Of a stretch of 25,660 nt of DNA, positions 7,766 to 19,847 are shown in pieces. The stretch lies in the IMG/VR virus record IMGVR_UViG_3300035199_000669, positions 1 through 25,660 of that record; one strand, 5' to 3'. The translations under genes and the position numbers were made by a program. The notes under the pieces are model-generated. The model saw only the letters and a program-made list of their open reading frames with translations. It did no database searches and was not told the origin of the DNA. This stretch comes from a virus. Position 1 is the first letter of the stretch, and each line of letters opens with the position of its first letter.

Positions 7766-8164
7766 ATGGGAAAGAAAAGAAGAGTATTAAATAATCCAAA
7801 GTTTGCTAAACTAAGGACGCATCCAAAGTATGCTGAAATGGTTGCTACAAGGGGGCAAGAAGAAGAATCTTGTGATGTAGTCACTAAGCAGCGAGAACCA
7901 GAGATTGTAAAAGAACCAGTTGTCGCGCCGTTCTTAGTTAAACTAAGGACGCATCCAAAGTATGCTGGAATGGTTGCCGCTCACGAGCAAGGAAAAGAAG
8001 AATCTTGTGAAGTAGTCATTAAGCAGCCAGAACCAGAGATCGCGGAGATTACGCCAGAGCTTAAAGTTGTAAAACTAGAAAAGCCAAAGCCTGCTCCCAA
8101 AACGAAAGCAAAATCAAAAACAAAAAAGATTACAGTAAGAAAGTCAACAAGGAAGAAAAAATGA
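7766..8164 (+). CDS. Lysine-rich protein with two 44-residue repeats, coupled to the tubulin-like gene
   Basis: This 132-residue protein of unknown family contains two near-identical repeats that begin KLRTHPKYA (residues about 15-58 and 59-95). Each continues with a charged EESCD/EVV.KQ..PEI segment. The C-terminal 35 residues are extremely basic (KPKPAPKTKAKSKTKK then RKSTRKKK), resembling histone-H1-like nucleic-acid-binding tails. GGAGG lies before the ATG. The stop overlaps the start of the FtsZ/tubulin-like gene as ATGA, so the two are translationally coupled and probably work together. Plasmid and phage tubulin systems (TubZ) have a small DNA-binding partner, TubR, encoded just upstream. 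This protein has no visible helix-turn-helix, so an analogous adaptor role is inference. A packaged DNA-binding protein is the main alternative. Confidence 0.72.
   Translation: MGKKRRVLNNPKFAKLRTHPKYAEMVATRGQEEESCDVVTKQREPEIVKEPVVAPFLVKLRTHPKYAGMVAAHEQGKEESCEVVIKQPEPEIAEITPELKVVKLEKPKPAPKTKAKSKTKKITVRKSTRKKK
7808..8041 (+). repeat. Internal 132-base direct duplication
   Basis: The copies start at 7808 and 7940 (period 132 bases, 44 codons). The first 28 bases are identical and the rest are clearly similar, with small in-frame differences. The duplication is inside the basic protein gene and preserves its reading frame, indicating a fairly recent in-frame duplication. Confidence 0.88.
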
Positions 8165-9195
8165 GTGATTTCGATTTCATAGACCATTATGGTGATAACG
8201 AAGAAGTAAAAGGCGAAGAACAACTGGCCGATAATGAGGTTGTTTCCTCCCTTAACTGTGCCGTTATTGGCGTTGGCGGCGGGGGAGGCAAGATGGCCAA
8301 AGCCTTTCTTGACATCGGATTCAATAGAACTTTACTTGTTAATACCACGGCAAAGGATATCCCCGAAGACGTTGACGAGAGACATGTTGTATTGATTCCA
8401 GATGCAGATGGAATTGGAAAAGATGTGAATCTTGGCAAGACCGTATTCGCGGATAATGGTGCCGTCGTTGAAGACGCCCTCAGAACCAAGCTTGGGAGCG
8501 TCGACTGGCTGTTTGTCTTCGCTGGTGGGGGGGGAGGTACAGGAAGTGCTACTGTGTCCCTACACGGCGTATTTGAGCGCTATTTGAAGTCTGTAAGCGC
8601 AGAGGGCTCCGTTGTCTATGTTGTTTCCCGGCCATCTGCTCAGGAAGCTTTGAATTCAACCATTAGTAAGAATGCTGAATCTCTTTTAGAAGATGTGTCC
8701 GAACACACTCATATTGTTTTAGACAATGAAAGACAAGTTAAGCTACTGCGCGGCAAAGTCGGGATGCTTGGAATGTTCCCATTTGCAAATACTGCATTTG
8801 CCAAGCTTATAGCACAGGTGCTCAAGCTCTCCTCGGAGCAATCGTCTATTCAGTCCTTTGATTCCAAGGATTTAGAGAGATGTCTCAGGACTAAGAAAAG
8901 AACGTTCATCGGATCGACAATTATCCGAGATCCGAAAGATCCGAACTTGGGAGCAACGATATTTCAAAACTGCTTGAACCGCTCCCCCTGTCCGTTGCCA
9001 AAGGGCCGGCCCGCTACTGGTTCGATGTTGTTGGTTGTAACTTCAGAAATGGCTAACGATCCCGAGATTAGTAAACACTTAGATGCTGCTATTTCATATG
9101 TCGGCGGAAGAACAGAAACACTATTTGCCGGTGTGTATGTGAAAGAAGACCTCCCAGGTTTAGTTGCTATATTGACAATGAATGGTTTGGATTGA
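8161..9195 (+). CDS. FtsZ/tubulin-superfamily GTPase
   Basis: This 344-residue cytomotive-filament-type GTPase has its superfamily elements in order. T1 is GVGGGGGKMA (37-46). T2 is NTTAKDI (61-67). T3 is GIGKDVNLG (84-92). The signature loop is AGGGGGTGSA (121-130). The VSRPS strand end lies at 155-159, and LDNERQ at 187-192 matches the FtsZ IPNDRL region. The catalytic T7-type loop is SFDSKDL with Asp234 and Asp237 in place of the FtsZ NxDxxD aspartates. Two changes are odd: the T7 Asn is Ser, and the last Gly of the tubulin signature is Ala130. An acidic tail of about 30 residues precedes the domain, and there is no FtsZ C-terminal partner peptide. Phage relatives (PhuZ, TubZ) position or segregate DNA, but this copy lies among head and neck genes. 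Filament formation is likely; its task here is unknown. Confidence 0.87.
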   Translation: MSDFDFIDHYGDNEEVKGEEQLADNEVVSSLNCAVIGVGGGGGKMAKAFLDIGFNRTLLVNTTAKDIPEDVDERHVVLIPDADGIGKDVNLGKTVFADNGAVVEDALRTKLGSVDWLFVFAGGGGGTGSATVSLHGVFERYLKSVSAEGSVVYVVSRPSAQEALNSTISKNAESLLEDVSEHTHIVLDNERQVKLLRGKVGMLGMFPFANTAFAKLIAQVLKLSSEQSSIQSFDSKDLERCLRTKKRTFIGSTIIRDPKDPNLGATIFQNCLNRSPCPLPKGRPATGSMLLVVTSEMANDPEISKHLDAAISYVGGRTETLFAGVYVKEDLPGLVAILTMNGLD

Positions 9196-15627: not shown

Positions 15628-16218
15628 ATGGCATTCTGGACCGACGCAACTGGGAATGATCCCAAAAGACAATTTAGATTTTTGGTAATCTTGGGCAATT
15701 TTCCTAATGGTGCCACTTGGTATGCGAAGAAGACGGGAAAACCATCTTTTACAGTCACCGAGATTGATCATAGTTATTTGAATCATACTTTTTATTATCC
15801 TGGCCGCGTTAAGTGGAATGATCTTTCTGTTACGCTTGTCGACCCAGTTTCCCCAGATGCCGTAGCCAATACTCTTTCGATGGTGCAGGCTTCTGGATAT
15901 CGTCTTCCAACTTCAATGGCCACTACGCCCGAAGAGACTTCAACAATTTCGAAGGCCAAGTCGGTTAATGCTTTGGGTGGTGTTGTCATCCAGCAGATCG
16001 ATTCGAATGGCAGCATTATTGAACAATGGACTTTAAATGGTGCTTTCCTCACGGAAGTTAACTTTGGTGAGTTAGATTATAGTTCGGATGAAATTGTAGA
16101 GGTTACTTTGAAATTCCGTTATGATTGGGCGGATTGTGTAACGGCCAACAACGCAGAACACCCAATCGGGCCTGAAAATGATTTCTTCAAGCTCGGTTCG
16201 CCGGTGGTAGGCCTTTAA
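15628..16218 (+). CDS. 19: Tail tube protein, T4 gp19-like
   Basis: This 196-residue subunit of the inner tail tube is slightly longer than T4 gp19 (163). The N-terminal DPKRQFRFLVIL and the central KKTGKPSFTVTEIDHSYLNH then FYYPGRVKWNDLSVTLVDP (about 35-75) are typical of myovirus tube proteins. The C-terminal WTLNGAFLTEVNFGELDYSS and ...EVTLKFRYDWADC (about 138-172) completes the beta-barrel hexamer-forming fold. It lies directly after the sheath gene, as in T4. AAGGAG lies before the ATG. The last 20 residues look like a flexible extension. Confidence 0.92.
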   Translation: MAFWTDATGNDPKRQFRFLVILGNFPNGATWYAKKTGKPSFTVTEIDHSYLNHTFYYPGRVKWNDLSVTLVDPVSPDAVANTLSMVQASGYRLPTSMATTPEETSTISKAKSVNALGGVVIQQIDSNGSIIEQWTLNGAFLTEVNFGELDYSSDEIVEVTLKFRYDWADCVTANNAEHPIGPENDFFKLGSPVVGL

Positions 16219-16260: not shown

Positions 16261-17103
16261 TTGAGTAGAAATAATGACGAGCGCATCGGCGCTCGGCAAG
16301 GGGCTTCCACGGCCCCTGTTGGCTCTTCGGATGTTTTTTCTTTTTCGACGCCAACAGAATTCGTGGATTTGCCTACGGGAGGCAAGTATTATCCCGAGGA
16401 CCACCCGCTTCACGGCAAAGAGCAAGTTGAAATTCGTTTTATGACTGCCAAGGATGAAGATATTCTCTCATCCAAGACGCTCTTGAAGAAGGGCCTAGCT
16501 ATTGAAAGGTTCCTTCAGAATGTCATAATTGATAAGTCAATTAATACAGATACTCTTTATATTGGCGATAAAAATGCAATCCTGGTCGCAGCCCGCAAGA
16601 CCGGGTATGGCGAAAGATATAGCACTAGAACTACTTGTCCGTCGTGTTTGACAGTTTCAGATTATGAATTTAATTTATCAAACTTGGGTACCTATTATGG
16701 AGATGACTGGGAAGGGTATGACATCCAGTCTCGCGACGACAGAATCTTCGCCGTGACAGTTCCGCAGTCTAAAGTTGAAGTTGAAGTTCAGCTTCTTACC
16801 AGCAAAGATGAACAATACCTTGCTCGGTTGACAGCCAGCAAAAAGAAGAAAAACCTTCCAGAAACCGGCTTGACTGATCAATTTAGAATGCTGATTGTTT
16901 CTGTTAATGGTCATCGAGATTCTAAATCAATTCAGAATTTTGTTGAAGGTATGCCTGCTCGCGACTCCAGATACCTTCGCACTGCTTACGAAAAAGTCGT
17001 TCCTAATGTAGATATGAAACAATTGTTTAGCTGCTCATCATGTGACTTTGAGCAGGAGGTAGTAGTGCCCTTTACGGCGAACTTTTTTTGGCCTAAACGA
17101 TGA
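16261..17103 (+). CDS. Tail assembly chaperone / T4 baseplate-type protein with zinc-ribbon motif
   Basis: This 280-residue protein lies between the tube and tape measure genes. The block FVDLPTGGKYYPEDHPL (about 34-50), followed by VEIRFMTAKDEDIL, is typical of the T4-type baseplate/gp26-related family found in myoviruses. The same place in other long-tailed phages is held by tail assembly chaperones such as lambda G. Two Cys pairs, C126-x-x-C129 and C258-x-x-C261, could bind zinc. The start is TTG with GAGGTG four bases upstream. The C-terminus reads NFFWPKR before the stop. At the FF codons a run of seven T allows ribosomes to slip into a longer frame that continues to 17335. The short form should be the major product and the long form the minor one, by analogy with G and GT. 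Confidence 0.75.
   Translation: MSRNNDERIGARQGASTAPVGSSDVFSFSTPTEFVDLPTGGKYYPEDHPLHGKEQVEIRFMTAKDEDILSSKTLLKKGLAIERFLQNVIIDKSINTDTLYIGDKNAILVAARKTGYGERYSTRTTCPSCLTVSDYEFNLSNLGTYYGDDWEGYDIQSRDDRIFAVTVPQSKVEVEVQLLTSKDEQYLARLTASKKKKNLPETGLTDQFRMLIVSVNGHRDSKSIQNFVEGMPARDSRYLRTAYEKVVPNVDMKQLFSCSSCDFEQEVVVPFTANFFWPKR
17083..17089 (+). promoter_or_regulatory. Putative slippery site for a +1 or -2 ribosomal frameshift
   Basis: Seven consecutive T span two Phe codons and the next first base, followed by GG. In the zero frame the codons are AAC TTT TTT TGG. Slipping one base forward or two bases back re-pairs Phe tRNA perfectly on TTT and opens the 81-codon frame. Phage Mu uses a -2 shift in the equivalent tail gene, and lambda uses -1. 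Confidence 0.65.
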
Positions 17104-17335
17104 ATACATAGCTTCCGTATATGAAGAGTTTTTCCTTTTAAAATACCATGGTGGCTGGAGTTTTACCGAGGCGTATAATCTTCCAACTGTTTTAAGAAGA
17201 TGGTTCCTTCAAAGGTTGGCTGACCAACTTAAGAGAGAAAAGGAAGCCATGGAACGTGCCTCTAAGGGCGGATCCAAAACCTATAATGCCGGCGAAGGCC
17301 CCCCTGCTGGCCCGCATATGAAACCAAGAGGCTGA
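17090..17335 (+). CDS. 81-codon frameshift extension of the tail assembly chaperone (GT-like)
   Basis: This frame runs from 17066 to a TGA at 17333-17335. It has no ATG, GTG or TTG before the conserved-looking part; the first is a TTG at 17216. It therefore needs a shift from the upstream gene. The product reads GLNDEYIASVYEEFFLLKYH, then GGWSFTEAYNLPTVLRRWFL and a charged helix QRLADQLKREKEAMERA, ending in a Gly/Pro-rich tail. The composition is that of a real protein. Short 'GGWSF-EAY-LP-LR-WF' proteins next to tail genes of marine T4-like phages look similar to me. The frame ends exactly within a strong terminator, which confirms it as the true end of the unit. By analogy with lambda GpGT, the long form would bind the tape measure protein. 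Confidence 0.75.
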   Translation, partial: GLNDEYIASVYEEFFLLKYHGGWSFTEAYNLPTVLRRWFLQRLADQLKREKEAMERASKGGSKTYNAGEGPPAGPHMKPRG

Positions 17336-17362
17336 AAGTATTGACTTTCAGCCTTATTTGTT
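17330..17362 (+). terminator. Rho-independent terminator overlapping the extension stop codon
   Basis: GGCTGAAAGT (17330-17339), an ATTG loop and ACTTTCAGCC (17344-17353) form a perfect 10-bp stem, followed by TTATTTGTTTTT. The TGA of the frameshift extension is inside the left arm, so ribosomes completing the long form would reach the hairpin. Confidence 0.92.
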
Positions 17363-17400: not shown

Positions 17401-17745
17401 ATGCAAAGTATTAATGAAGAGAAACTGCAACCAATTATAATTGATTTTGAAGAATTAAAATCCAAGAAACTTAATGAAAGCTACTACTCTATGATGGGCG
17501 CTTGGATTAAAATGATTATTGATAATATGTTTGGGACAAGTTTTGCAGGGTTAAATCTCCAAATTCGCGGCACCGAAAGAGAAGTGCGTTCTTTTACCAA
17601 TGCCGTCGCAAGTGAAAAGAAACATATTCAGACTGCAAGAGACTATGGCTTGAATAATCCGAGAACATATAAATCAAGAGCAATATTGAGCAAAGCCGTA
17701 AAAGGCTTTGAAAAAGCGACTGGCTTAAAATGGCCGTTCAAGTAG
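17401..17745 (+). CDS. Small protein of the tail region, function unknown
   Basis: This 114-residue, mixed-charge, probably helical protein includes LNESYYSMMGAWIKMIIDNM (about 24-43), IRGTEREVRSFTNAVASEKK (55-74), and a C-terminal NPRTYKSRAILSKAVKGFEK ending TGLKWPFK. I recall similar WPFK-ending proteins next to tape measure genes in marine T4-like phages, but no role is established. It begins a new unit behind an ACTATTTA motif, and the tape measure gene follows 11 bases after its stop. A tail assembly or baseplate-associated role is inferred from position. T4 gp51 is a small catalyst of hub assembly that might be comparable, but no sequence link is visible. Confidence 0.55.
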   Translation: MQSINEEKLQPIIIDFEELKSKKLNESYYSMMGAWIKMIIDNMFGTSFAGLNLQIRGTEREVRSFTNAVASEKKHIQTARDYGLNNPRTYKSRAILSKAVKGFEKATGLKWPFK

Positions 17746-17756
17746 GACTAATTTAA

Positions 17757-19847
17757 ATGGCTGATGAAACAGGTAAATTAACCTCGGAAGAATTGGCGGT
17801 TAAGGCACAAAAGCTTGCCAACCTCAATGAACAGTATAAAGCTTATATCAAGCTTGTCGCAGAGGACGCCGAGGCAGCGGCGGCATGGGGTAAGGAAATG
17901 GCCGCCGTTAAGGCGGAAATGGATGATCTGTCAGGTGCGATTGAAGACCACAACAAAACGGTCGATGACGCCGCCAAAGCCACCGCCGCTCTCAAAGCAG
18001 AATACGAAAAAACAGTCGGAACAGCCAAAACTTTAATTACAGGCCTCACGGGCCTTGGAGAGGGTTGGAAACAAACTGCTGCCGGTACTTTATTCGCGAC
18101 GGATTCGACGAAGGCTTGGAGCCAAGCAGCGAAAGAAACGATTACTGTACAAAATATATTAGGCACCATAATGAAGACGGTCGTGGAAGAAACCGTCATG
18201 CTAACAAAATCCACAGACGAAGCATTTGTAAGCTTTAACCAAGCCACTGGTATGATTGATGAATACGGAGACGGCCTCAAGGCGGCTGAGTACGAGCTTC
18301 GCGCCAGCGGTGTTAGTATCGGAGATTTGGCCACAGCCAACCAGGTCTTAATCGAGGGCTTTAGAGAGTTTACAACGCTAACAGGGGAACAACAACAAGA
18401 ACTTATAGAAACAACAGGTTTGTTGGACAAGATGGGCGTTTCCTCAGATGCTATGGCTAAAAATATGGATTTCTTATCCAACTCTGTTGGGCTAACAGGA
18501 GACCAGCTTGCACAAACTGAAATTGATATTTATAACTTGGGTAAAGAGATTGGCATAGGTGGCCCAGCCGCAATCGAGGCTTTCACTGCTGCCGGCCCAA
18601 AACTGGCCAAGTTCGGTGGAGACGCCGTTGATGTTTTTGCGGATACTGCAAGAGCGGCCAAGGAAGCCAGAATGTCCATAGAGGAACTTATGAGTGTTAC
18701 CGATACATTTGATAAGTTTGACACAGCGGCCGATTCAGTTGGCCGCCTTAACGCCCTATTGGGTGGCCCATTTTTAAACACCATGGAAATGGTCATGGAG
18801 ACCGATCCAGCAACAAGACTCGGAATGATTTCAGATGCTCTTTCATCCGCCGGAAAAGATTTTGAGTCGATGTCATATTATGAAAGGCAAGCAATTGCCG
18901 ATGCAGCCGGCTTAGCAGATGTGAGCGAATTGGCAAATATTATGGCAGGAGATTTTGACAATTTAACCGGCGGTATGCAAGAGAATTCTATGACCCAAGA
19001 AGAGCTTCGAGAACAAACGCACAAATTCAACACATTAGCAGAAGAATTTCATCAAGTTATGCAAATGGTTGCTCTTCAGTTTAAGCCGGTTGTCGACGGG
19101 TTGAAAGCCATGCTACATTGGGTGCAGGAATTGCTGGGCGATTCGGGGCTTGGATATCTGATTGGTGTGATAGTTGTAGCAGTAGTGGTCATCAAAGGCT
19201 TATATACGGCTCTTTTGGTTACGACCGGTGTTATTAAATCAATCACAGCAGCCCAGGCCGCGTGGGGTGTTGTTAAAGGGTGGTTTACGGGGGTAACGCT
19301 GGCCGAAGCTGCCGCCACCGACACCGCAGCCGCCAGCAATGTGGTATTTGGTCTTTCTTTGGCAGGTACACTTGAAATTATGGCCGCCGCAGTTCCAGTT
19401 ATCGCTGCTCTGGGCTTGGCTATGTTAGAAGTGGGAGCAGCTATTTTTCTTGCTGCTGCGGGTTTCGCCGCGATTATCTATGCTTCTTCGCTTGTTATTA
19501 AGTCAATAGCTATGATTGTCGAAGCTATTGGTGGCGTTGTTGAAGGCTTAGCCGCCTTAAGTGGTGATCAATTCTTGCAGGCCGCCATGGGCGTGGCCGT
19601 ATTGGCTAAAGCGATTAGCGATTTGCCAGTTTTCAAAACCATTTTGCTCAACGCTACATTTGCCTCAGCAGCAGCTTACGAAGCTTCGGCCGCCATCAGA
19701 GAGTCCGCCGCAGCTAATAGGGCAGCAGGAGCAACAAACGTAAATGTTGGGGGAAGTGTACAACAGCCAGTCAGCGTGATGCTTGGGGAACGCAAACTCG
19801 GCGGCTTCGTTCTTAACACTATGCTGGAAGCCCTCCCAGGTAGGTAA
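17757..19847 (+). CDS. Tail tape measure protein
   Basis: This 696-residue protein should set tail length and sit inside the tube. The N-terminal 90 residues are helical and coiled-coil-like with many Ala/Glu/Lys. Long Ala-rich helices follow up to about 440. There are hydrophobic segments at about 464-495 (LIGVIVVAVVVIKGL) and about 530-605, typical of tape measures that insert into the host membrane on DNA delivery. The C-terminus has NVNVGGSVQQPVSVMLGERK, then LGGFVL, a beta-like ending common in these proteins. T4 gp29 has 590 residues. At roughly 0.15 nm per residue this predicts a tail of about 100 nm (an estimate). The gene lies after the chaperone and before baseplate genes, as expected. 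No peptidase or lysozyme domain is visible. Confidence 0.85.
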   Translation: MADETGKLTSEELAVKAQKLANLNEQYKAYIKLVAEDAEAAAAWGKEMAAVKAEMDDLSGAIEDHNKTVDDAAKATAALKAEYEKTVGTAKTLITGLTGLGEGWKQTAAGTLFATDSTKAWSQAAKETITVQNILGTIMKTVVEETVMLTKSTDEAFVSFNQATGMIDEYGDGLKAAEYELRASGVSIGDLATANQVLIEGFREFTTLTGEQQQELIETTGLLDKMGVSSDAMAKNMDFLSNSVGLTGDQLAQTEIDIYNLGKEIGIGGPAAIEAFTAAGPKLAKFGGDAVDVFADTARAAKEARMSIEELMSVTDTFDKFDTAADSVGRLNALLGGPFLNTMEMVMETDPATRLGMISDALSSAGKDFESMSYYERQAIADAAGLADVSELANIMAGDFDNLTGGMQENSMTQEELREQTHKFNTLAEEFHQVMQMVALQFKPVVDGLKAMLHWVQELLGDSGLGYLIGVIVVAVVVIKGLYTALLVTTGVIKSITAAQAAWGVVKGWFTGVTLAEAAATDTAAASNVVFGLSLAGTLEIMAAAVPVIAALGLAMLEVGAAIFLAAAGFAAIIYASSLVIKSIAMIVEAIGGVVEGLAALSGDQFLQAAMGVAVLAKAISDLPVFKTILLNATFASAAAYEASAAIRESAAANRAAGATNVNVGGSVQQPVSVMLGERKLGGFVLNTMLEALPGR

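Follow-up and report, generated by a model that had tools for sequence, protein, structure and literature searches.

How is a protein-like stretch of 81 codons translated when it lies out of frame behind a phage tail gene and has no start codon before its conserved part? The question is raised by a viral DNA of 25,660 nucleotides, referred to here over its whole length as the window, for which a preliminary description had proposed a frameshift at a run of T that yields a long tail assembly chaperone. That proposal passed all the comparative tests that we ran, among them the two that the description itself had suggested. Judging from sequence comparison, it is highly probable that a programmed +1 frameshift at the T run makes two chaperones from one gene, with a prfB-like signal that includes a 5' hairpin; the longer second protein almost certainly arises by a one-base forward slip.

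The chaperone gene and its out-of-frame extension

The short chaperone, TAC-N (16261-17103, + strand), is 280 aa long and starts with TTG. By profile comparison, it matched the Pfam family T4_baseplate (PF12322; 2.3e-12, 47.5 bits, above the curated cut-off of 24.5) and the PHROG 150 baseplate hub (2.5e-13), and we assign this 280-codon gene to the T4 gp26-type tail assembly chaperones. We also built an AlphaFold2 model of TAC-N on 50 relatives (pLDDT 89). When this model was compared with the PDB by Foldseek, the HK97 tail assembly chaperone 2ob9 ranked first, with a weak E of 0.24, and VIA-align superposed the two at Z 6.0 and 3.0 Å over 76 residues, the next matches having Z of 4.3 and <3. 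The HK97 match with Z 6 is suggestive of a chaperone-like fold. The gene stands between tail tube and tape measure, as had been claimed: the tail tube gene is its upstream neighbour (15628-16218, +; PHROG 4542 tail tube, 2.1e-24) and the tape measure gene its downstream one (17757-19847, +; PHROG 167 tape measure, 3.8e-5).

Chaperone and tape measure are separated by an ORF of 114 aa (17401-17745, +), which has homologues in 86 fetched loci and for which Pfam, PHROG and NCBIfam profile searches returned no known family. Elsewhere in the window, a T4 gp21-like prohead protease (631-1242, +; Peptidase_S77, 1.2e-29) supports a T4-related head module, and a tubulin/FtsZ-family GTPase gene (8161-9195, +; PF00091, 3.7e-8, over the cut-off, with the signature GGGGGTGS) sits within the cluster of virion-structure genes.

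The 3' end of the TAC-N reading frame reads AAC TTT TTT TGG CCT AAA CGA TGA, with the stop codon TGA at 17101-17103 (+) and a run of seven T at 17083-17089, where the two frames meet just as first described. From the alignment of all loci, the slip site is TTT TTT TGG (17083-17091, +), which places 17083-17085 in the E-site, 17086-17088 in the P-site and 17089-17091 in the A-site. The +1 frame is uninterrupted across the end of TAC-N up to a stop codon at 17333-17335 and translates as FFGLNDEYIASVYEEFFLLKYHGGWSFTEAYNLPTVLRRWFLQRLADQLKREKEA... Its extension part, TAC-C (17090-17335, +), has 81 codons, counted from GGC at 17090, plus the stop, and would be present only in the frameshift product TAC-NC. 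No ATG, GTG or TTG precedes the conserved part of this extension in the window, which agrees with the earlier observation of out-of-frame codons lacking a start. That the extension ends in a terminator was also correct: its stop codon lies inside an intrinsic-terminator-like stem-loop (17328-17355, +) made of 12 pairs and followed by ATTTGTTTTT. Profile searches with TAC-C gave a weak match to DUF6760 (PF20546; 7e-4, 20 bits, below the cut-off of 27). A PDB sequence search returned only a zinc-finger chance match, and an NCBIfam search no credible match.

An alignment of relatives had been proposed as a check of the downstream frame, and in it this frame proved stable. First, all 79 close relatives (IMG/VR, complete) keep TTTTTTTGG, or TTCTTTTGG in a minority, together with a homologous extension in +1, and their chaperone gene stops a few codons past this motif. 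As TTTTTTTGG occurs once in the window against 0.95 expected, that is at chance level, the evidence rests on the position and conservation of the motif. Second, a profile-based survey, which extended to relatives of about 25% aa identity and took in five contigs from bacterial genome bins, gave 132 representatives (non-redundant homologues at 80% aa identity), with the extension in +1 in 127 and in -1 in the five others, the -1 lineages. Because a tblastn search with the extension by itself matched only Microcystis phage Mel-JY01 in the phage collection, the N part was used for finding relatives. The +1 arrangement occurs in isolated phages of five genera (Microcystis, Flavobacterium, Listeria, Bacillus and Streptococcus). 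Third, two further scans supplied a held-out set of 79 new representatives, 76 of them with a detectable extension, which is in +1 in 75. The exception, L360 (1315-1340), carries TTC TTC TGG at the slip site, and its extension is not in +1 but in the other frame; it is either a broken gene, an assembly error, or an exception with a different solution. Read in +1, the extension has a median dN/dS of 0.23. These comparisons show a two-frame gene.

Homopolymer lengths are often miscalled and six T would join the frames, so that a sequencing or assembly error might be suspected at a single locus. However, hundreds of independent contigs and isolated phages share the arrangement, including sites without a 7-T run, and the probability of such an error is negligible. 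Stop-codon recoding was ruled out, since the 0-frame stop codon across relatives is TGA in 66, TAA in 48 and TAG in 13.

A further possibility is that the extension is a separate protein, started in or just past TAC-N by termination-reinitiation. Distant relatives do have such an arrangement: genes 26 and 51 are separate in T4, the two parts overlap as TAATG in Pseudomonas phage Cygsa01, and the start of bacterial DUF6760 genes overlaps the stop before it as ATGA or GTGA. In the +1 clade, however, no ATG, GTG or TTG is available to the +1 frame, either upstream or within its first 12 codons, in 40 of 127 loci, and ATG is lacking there in 82 of 127; a separate protein would also leave unexplained the slip codon and its fixed position at the FF residues. 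We therefore consider it highly improbable for this clade. A minority of close relatives contain a candidate start codon in +1, but none is shown to have a separate gene in place of the shift.

This organization affects existing annotations. Those of Microcystis phage Mel-JY01, Flavobacterium phage Immuto, Bacillus phage SP-15, Listeria phage LIS04 and many environmental contigs either overlook the extension or give it as a gene of its own, and the +1 reading corrects them. In Mel-JY01 (L082:2234-2470), the +1 extension appears as a distinct hypothetical protein whose gene overlaps that of the chaperone. A plasmid search for relatives of the SP-15 chaperone found none.

The slip site and the direction of the shift

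By comparing the slip sites of the 127 +1 representatives, we found that the P-site codon is TTT in 123 and CTT in 4, and never TTC, yet UUC makes up 28% of the Phe codons in the chaperone genes of this clade and can be used in the codon that precedes the P-site codon. A P-site limited to UUU and CUU is what +1 re-pairing requires (UUU or CUU to UUU or UUC), and all 127 P-site codons are able to re-pair one base forward. The comparison thus shows a constraint on the slip codon. The A-site codon is UGG in 118 of 127 loci and UAC in 4.

Runs of merely three or four T occur at TTCTTTTGG, TTTCTTTGG, TTCCTTTGG and UUU-C sites, with the frame arrangement unchanged; in these alignments, the T run is not an essential element of the site. 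Where the frame is still read in this clade, the slip codon is never UUC, but the full run is dispensable. The same sites bear on RNA polymerase slippage, by which some transcripts would be one U short and would themselves encode the fusion. Seven T are indeed present in the window and most relatives, but the identical frame arrangement in many relatives with runs of three to four T, and a UUU/CUU rule that suits codon re-pairing rather than run length, make polymerase slippage extremely unlikely.

The preliminary description had left the direction of the shift as +1 or -2. A -2 shift as in phage Mu (PMC5009743) would put one extra Phe ahead of the extension, with a junction reading ...FTANFFFGLNDEY..., and at sites with seven T, re-pairing of tRNA-Phe is possible both two bases back and one base forward, as it is on the seven U of the window itself. 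In contrast, -2 re-pairing is impossible in nine lineages (L031, L049, L063, L073, L085, L087, L105, L129 and L134), where the -2 codon is UCU, UCC or ACU, as at UUC UUU UGG, UUC CUU UGG, UUC UUU CGU and AAC UUU CUA. The extension of all nine stays in the same frame and +1 re-pairing works in every one of them. Because -2 re-pairing fails in these lineages, comparison shows the shift to be +1; the +1 half of the original claim stands, and a -2 shift is very unlikely.

With a +1 shift, most ribosomes would translate 16261-17103 and stop at its TGA, releasing the short form TAC-N. A fraction of them, presumably at a useful rate, would slip when UUU (17086-17088) is in the P-site and UGG in the A-site: tRNA-Phe would leave UUU 17086-17088 and re-pair with the overlapping UUU 17087-17089, and the ribosome would then read GGC CUA and the rest of the +1 frame up to 17335, which yields TAC-NC. 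The predicted +1 junction peptide is ...FTANFFGLNDEY..., with two Phe. We infer a role of both products in tail assembly, where TAC-N would coat the tape measure protein and the additional domain of TAC-NC would recruit the tail tube, as do lambda G and GT.

The 5' hairpin and other candidate stimulators

A feature that had escaped the preliminary description is a small hairpin just 5' of the slip site. We scored as strict hairpins those with at least 4 Watson-Crick pairs, at least 3 of them G-C, a loop of 3-8 and an end 0-7 nt before the two Phe codons. Strict hairpins were found in 63 of 127 loci, compared to 3.3% of other windows in the same genes, so that they are limited to about half of the +1 loci. 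By synonymous resampling, 4.2 ± 1.8 hairpins were expected (maximum 9 in 100 trials) against 63 of 126 observed, and the mean folding energy was -5.45 compared to -3.13 ± 0.16 kcal/mol. In the held-out loci, 31 of 75 have the hairpin, against 2.3 ± 1.5 under the null (maximum 8). Followed along the gene, this excess of structure is greatest at the hairpin (z -15 to -28) and is about 0 to -5 farther upstream; the excess of stability immediately downstream of the site is smaller (z about -7 to -9).

The 63 hairpin loci have 33 different stems, for instance CCGU/ACGG, CCGC/GCGG, GCCC/GGGC, ACCG/CGGU and CGCAUCC/GGAUGCG, which fall mostly into two dominant registers three bases apart. Covariation was 0.217 vs 0.133 in one register (reached by 1 of 500 shuffles) and 0.294 vs 0.170 in the other (0 of 500), with compensatory pairs in both (UA/CG/UG, GC/AU and CG/GC); as both alignments were selected for pairing, the synonymous null is the fairer test. 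Comparison of the loci thus shows both conservation and covariation of the hairpin. Upstream of the site, codon choice is unusual (GAG 54 vs GAA 1, GAC 53 vs GAT 4, and CCG, ACG and GCG in excess), which we attribute to the folding of the hairpin. In the window, UGCC (17066-17069) can pair with GGCG (17076-17079) around the loop CUUUAC (17066-17079, +; register B of alignment A5), a stem of three Watson-Crick pairs and one G-U located three bases 5' of the E-site codon. An Rfam search of the window gave no match.

The layout at natural +1 sites is a hairpin, 0-5 nt, the E-site UUU, the P-site YUU and the A-site UGG. Huang, Cho and Chang have shown with 70S ribosomes that an engineered hairpin adjacent to the E-site increases +1 frameshifting at CUUUGA and decreases -1 frameshifting at A6G, thereby mimicking the internal Shine-Dalgarno of prfB (PMC6321510). 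Since the natural layout matches this one, and since +1 sites have the hairpin and -1 sites lack it (none at 40 distinct -1 cyanophage sites), we take it as the probable stimulator of +1 slippage. The mRNA behind the ribosome would refold into the small hairpin 17066-17079 just 5' of the E-site codon, and this hairpin would act like the Shine-Dalgarno:anti-Shine-Dalgarno duplex of prfB, favouring forward slippage and opposing backward slippage. Engineered refolding hairpins (PMC3639245, PMC6321510) are likewise adjacent to the E-site, favour +1 and disfavour -1, as the distribution in the window's gene family would suggest; they differ in being artificial, the one of the 70S study with a stem of 12 bp, whereas those of the window clade are natural and have 4-8 bp.

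Alternatively, frameshifting may be real and the hairpin may work otherwise, for example through mRNA stability or by hiding GGAGGU, or may result from constraint on the protein. The limitation of strict stems to about half of the loci and the pairing of GGAGGU in some predicted folds speak for this reading. On the other hand, synonymous resampling excludes a by-product of protein constraint in both the main and held-out sets, and the near-fixed distance to the slip site and the absence from -1 cyanophage sites are those expected of a +1 stimulator (PMC6321510). We consider another role of the hairpin rather unlikely, and stimulation of the +1 slip remains the reading that we prefer.

The Shine-Dalgarno-like GGAGGU lies in the window at 17055-17060 (+), with 25 nt separating it from the P-site codon. 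Such a motif is found at most 33 nt upstream in 87 of 127 representatives, compared to 6.4% of other windows; the GAG:GAA ratio of 54:1 is that of the Glu codon at -8, against a background of 34% GAG. Across the family, GGAGGU is under codon-level selection at 20 or about 27 nt (range 20-28) from the P-site codon, and it pairs in some predicted folds, its possible partner in some loci being the 3' side of the hairpin. We rejected it as a direct stimulator, strongly selected as it is, because 20-28 nt from the P-site codon exceeds both known modes. Within 17 nt of the P-site codon, a Shine-Dalgarno-like motif was found in 0 of 127 loci, that place being occupied by the hairpin. A downstream pseudoknot or stem-loop was also rejected as a stimulator: neither the window nor sample folds of relatives had a strong structure there, and the excess across loci was modest.

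Known frameshift systems and the -1 sister clades

Frameshifting in tail chaperone genes is itself already known, including in T4-like phages. It has been described as -1, -2 and +1, and +1 is very likely in the chaperone of the haloarchaeal myovirus HSTV-2 (PMC5009743). The preliminary description knew of no established frameshift in a T4-like gene of this type, which turned out to be mistaken: frameshifted T4-like chaperones, likewise absent from it, were reported by Vladimirov, Gautam and Davidson in 2022 (Virology 566:9-15), as related in PMC10885494 and PMC12846349, and we found -1 versions in cyanophages and other T4-like phages. In the open-access literature, we found no report of a +1 clade in T4 gp26-type chaperones, of the slip-codon rule or of the 5' hairpin.

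The -1 extension follows UUUUUUC or UUUUUUG in cyanophages (Sf-FS3 and 80 IMG/VR loci), Rhizobium phages IC12 and RL38J1, Aeromonas phage phiAS5 and Agrobacterium phage Atu_ph07. When searched with the +1 profile (13 sequences in the search), Sf-FS3 matched at 3e-8, IC12 at 1.5e-5 and Atu_ph07 weakly, from which we judge TAC-C to be homologous to the -1-frame extensions of T4-like phages. A direct HMM comparison of the +1 extension with T4 gp51 gave no match, and it is the -1 relatives, together with Vladimirov 2022, that supply the link to gp51. An X XXY YYZ heptamer with a -1 extension was absent from the window and from 127 of 132 representatives, and present in the T4-like relatives.

T4-like chaperones have in common with the window the gp26/gp51 gene family, the location and a homologous C-terminal extension. 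In the examples that we found, however, the shift is -1 at U UUU UUC, preceded in cyanophages by GGAGG at 9-10 nt, whereas the window clade uses +1 at YUU U together with a 5' hairpin. GGAGG stands at this distance, one known to stimulate -1 shifting, in 37 of the 40 distinct -1 sites from cyanophages. Lambda G/GT is similar in that one gene upstream of the tape measure gives a short and a long chaperone, and differs in protein family by sequence, in slip site and in stimulator. The order of the signal is that of E. coli prfB (RF2), namely duplex, E-site codon, P-site YUU re-pairing on UUU, and A-site codon; the CUU UGG of relatives L083, L129, L152 and L170 closely resembles the CUU UGA of prfB. 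Two differences stand out: the duplex is a Shine-Dalgarno with 16S rRNA in prfB and an mRNA hairpin in the window clade, and the A-site holds a stop in prfB and a sense codon (UGG, UAC) in the window clade, where the product is a C-terminal extension.

With some reserve, we favour the view that these are natural, family-wide +1 signals in which a small refolding hairpin adjacent to the E-site substitutes for the Shine-Dalgarno duplex of prfB, that the sister clades are the mirror image (Shine-Dalgarno at 10 nt, U UUU UUC, -1), and that direction is set 5' of the site. One gene family would then use opposite frameshift directions in different clades, with a separate upstream signal for each. 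This would provide a natural comparison for the choice between +1 and -1 by duplexes behind the ribosome, previously studied via synthetic hairpins, and the rule of UUU/CUU plus +1 frame, together with the hairpin, could be used for finding such sites. On a quick tree of 64 proteins, the frame state needs four changes compared to 13 in shuffles, the deep branches being long and untrustworthy.

Further arrangements were observed among more distant loci. In T4-like cyanophage chaperone genes (L185-L264), the -1 site is UUUUUUCG in most of the 80 loci. A huge-phage lineage (L088, L182-L184) has UUUUUUC in all four members and an extension that looks -1, with an overlapping TAATG in L088 and L184 as an alternative route to it. 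In Cygsa01 (L095:1807-1811), TAATG is the overlap between stop and start of the two chaperone parts, and coupled separate genes replace the shift. Finally, bacterial DUF6760 (PF20546) genes beside a T4_baseplate-like gene resemble the window in their C-terminal domain and neighbour, and differ in that their extension lies in -1 and in most cases starts with an overlapping ATG or GTG. Many of these genes (L268-L285, L287) follow a chaperone-like ORF ending in GRLGES*, with a conserved CTGGGGGAATC[A/G]TGA; L274, L277 and L287 have no canonical start, and a -1 shift at GGGGGAA is possible in these three.
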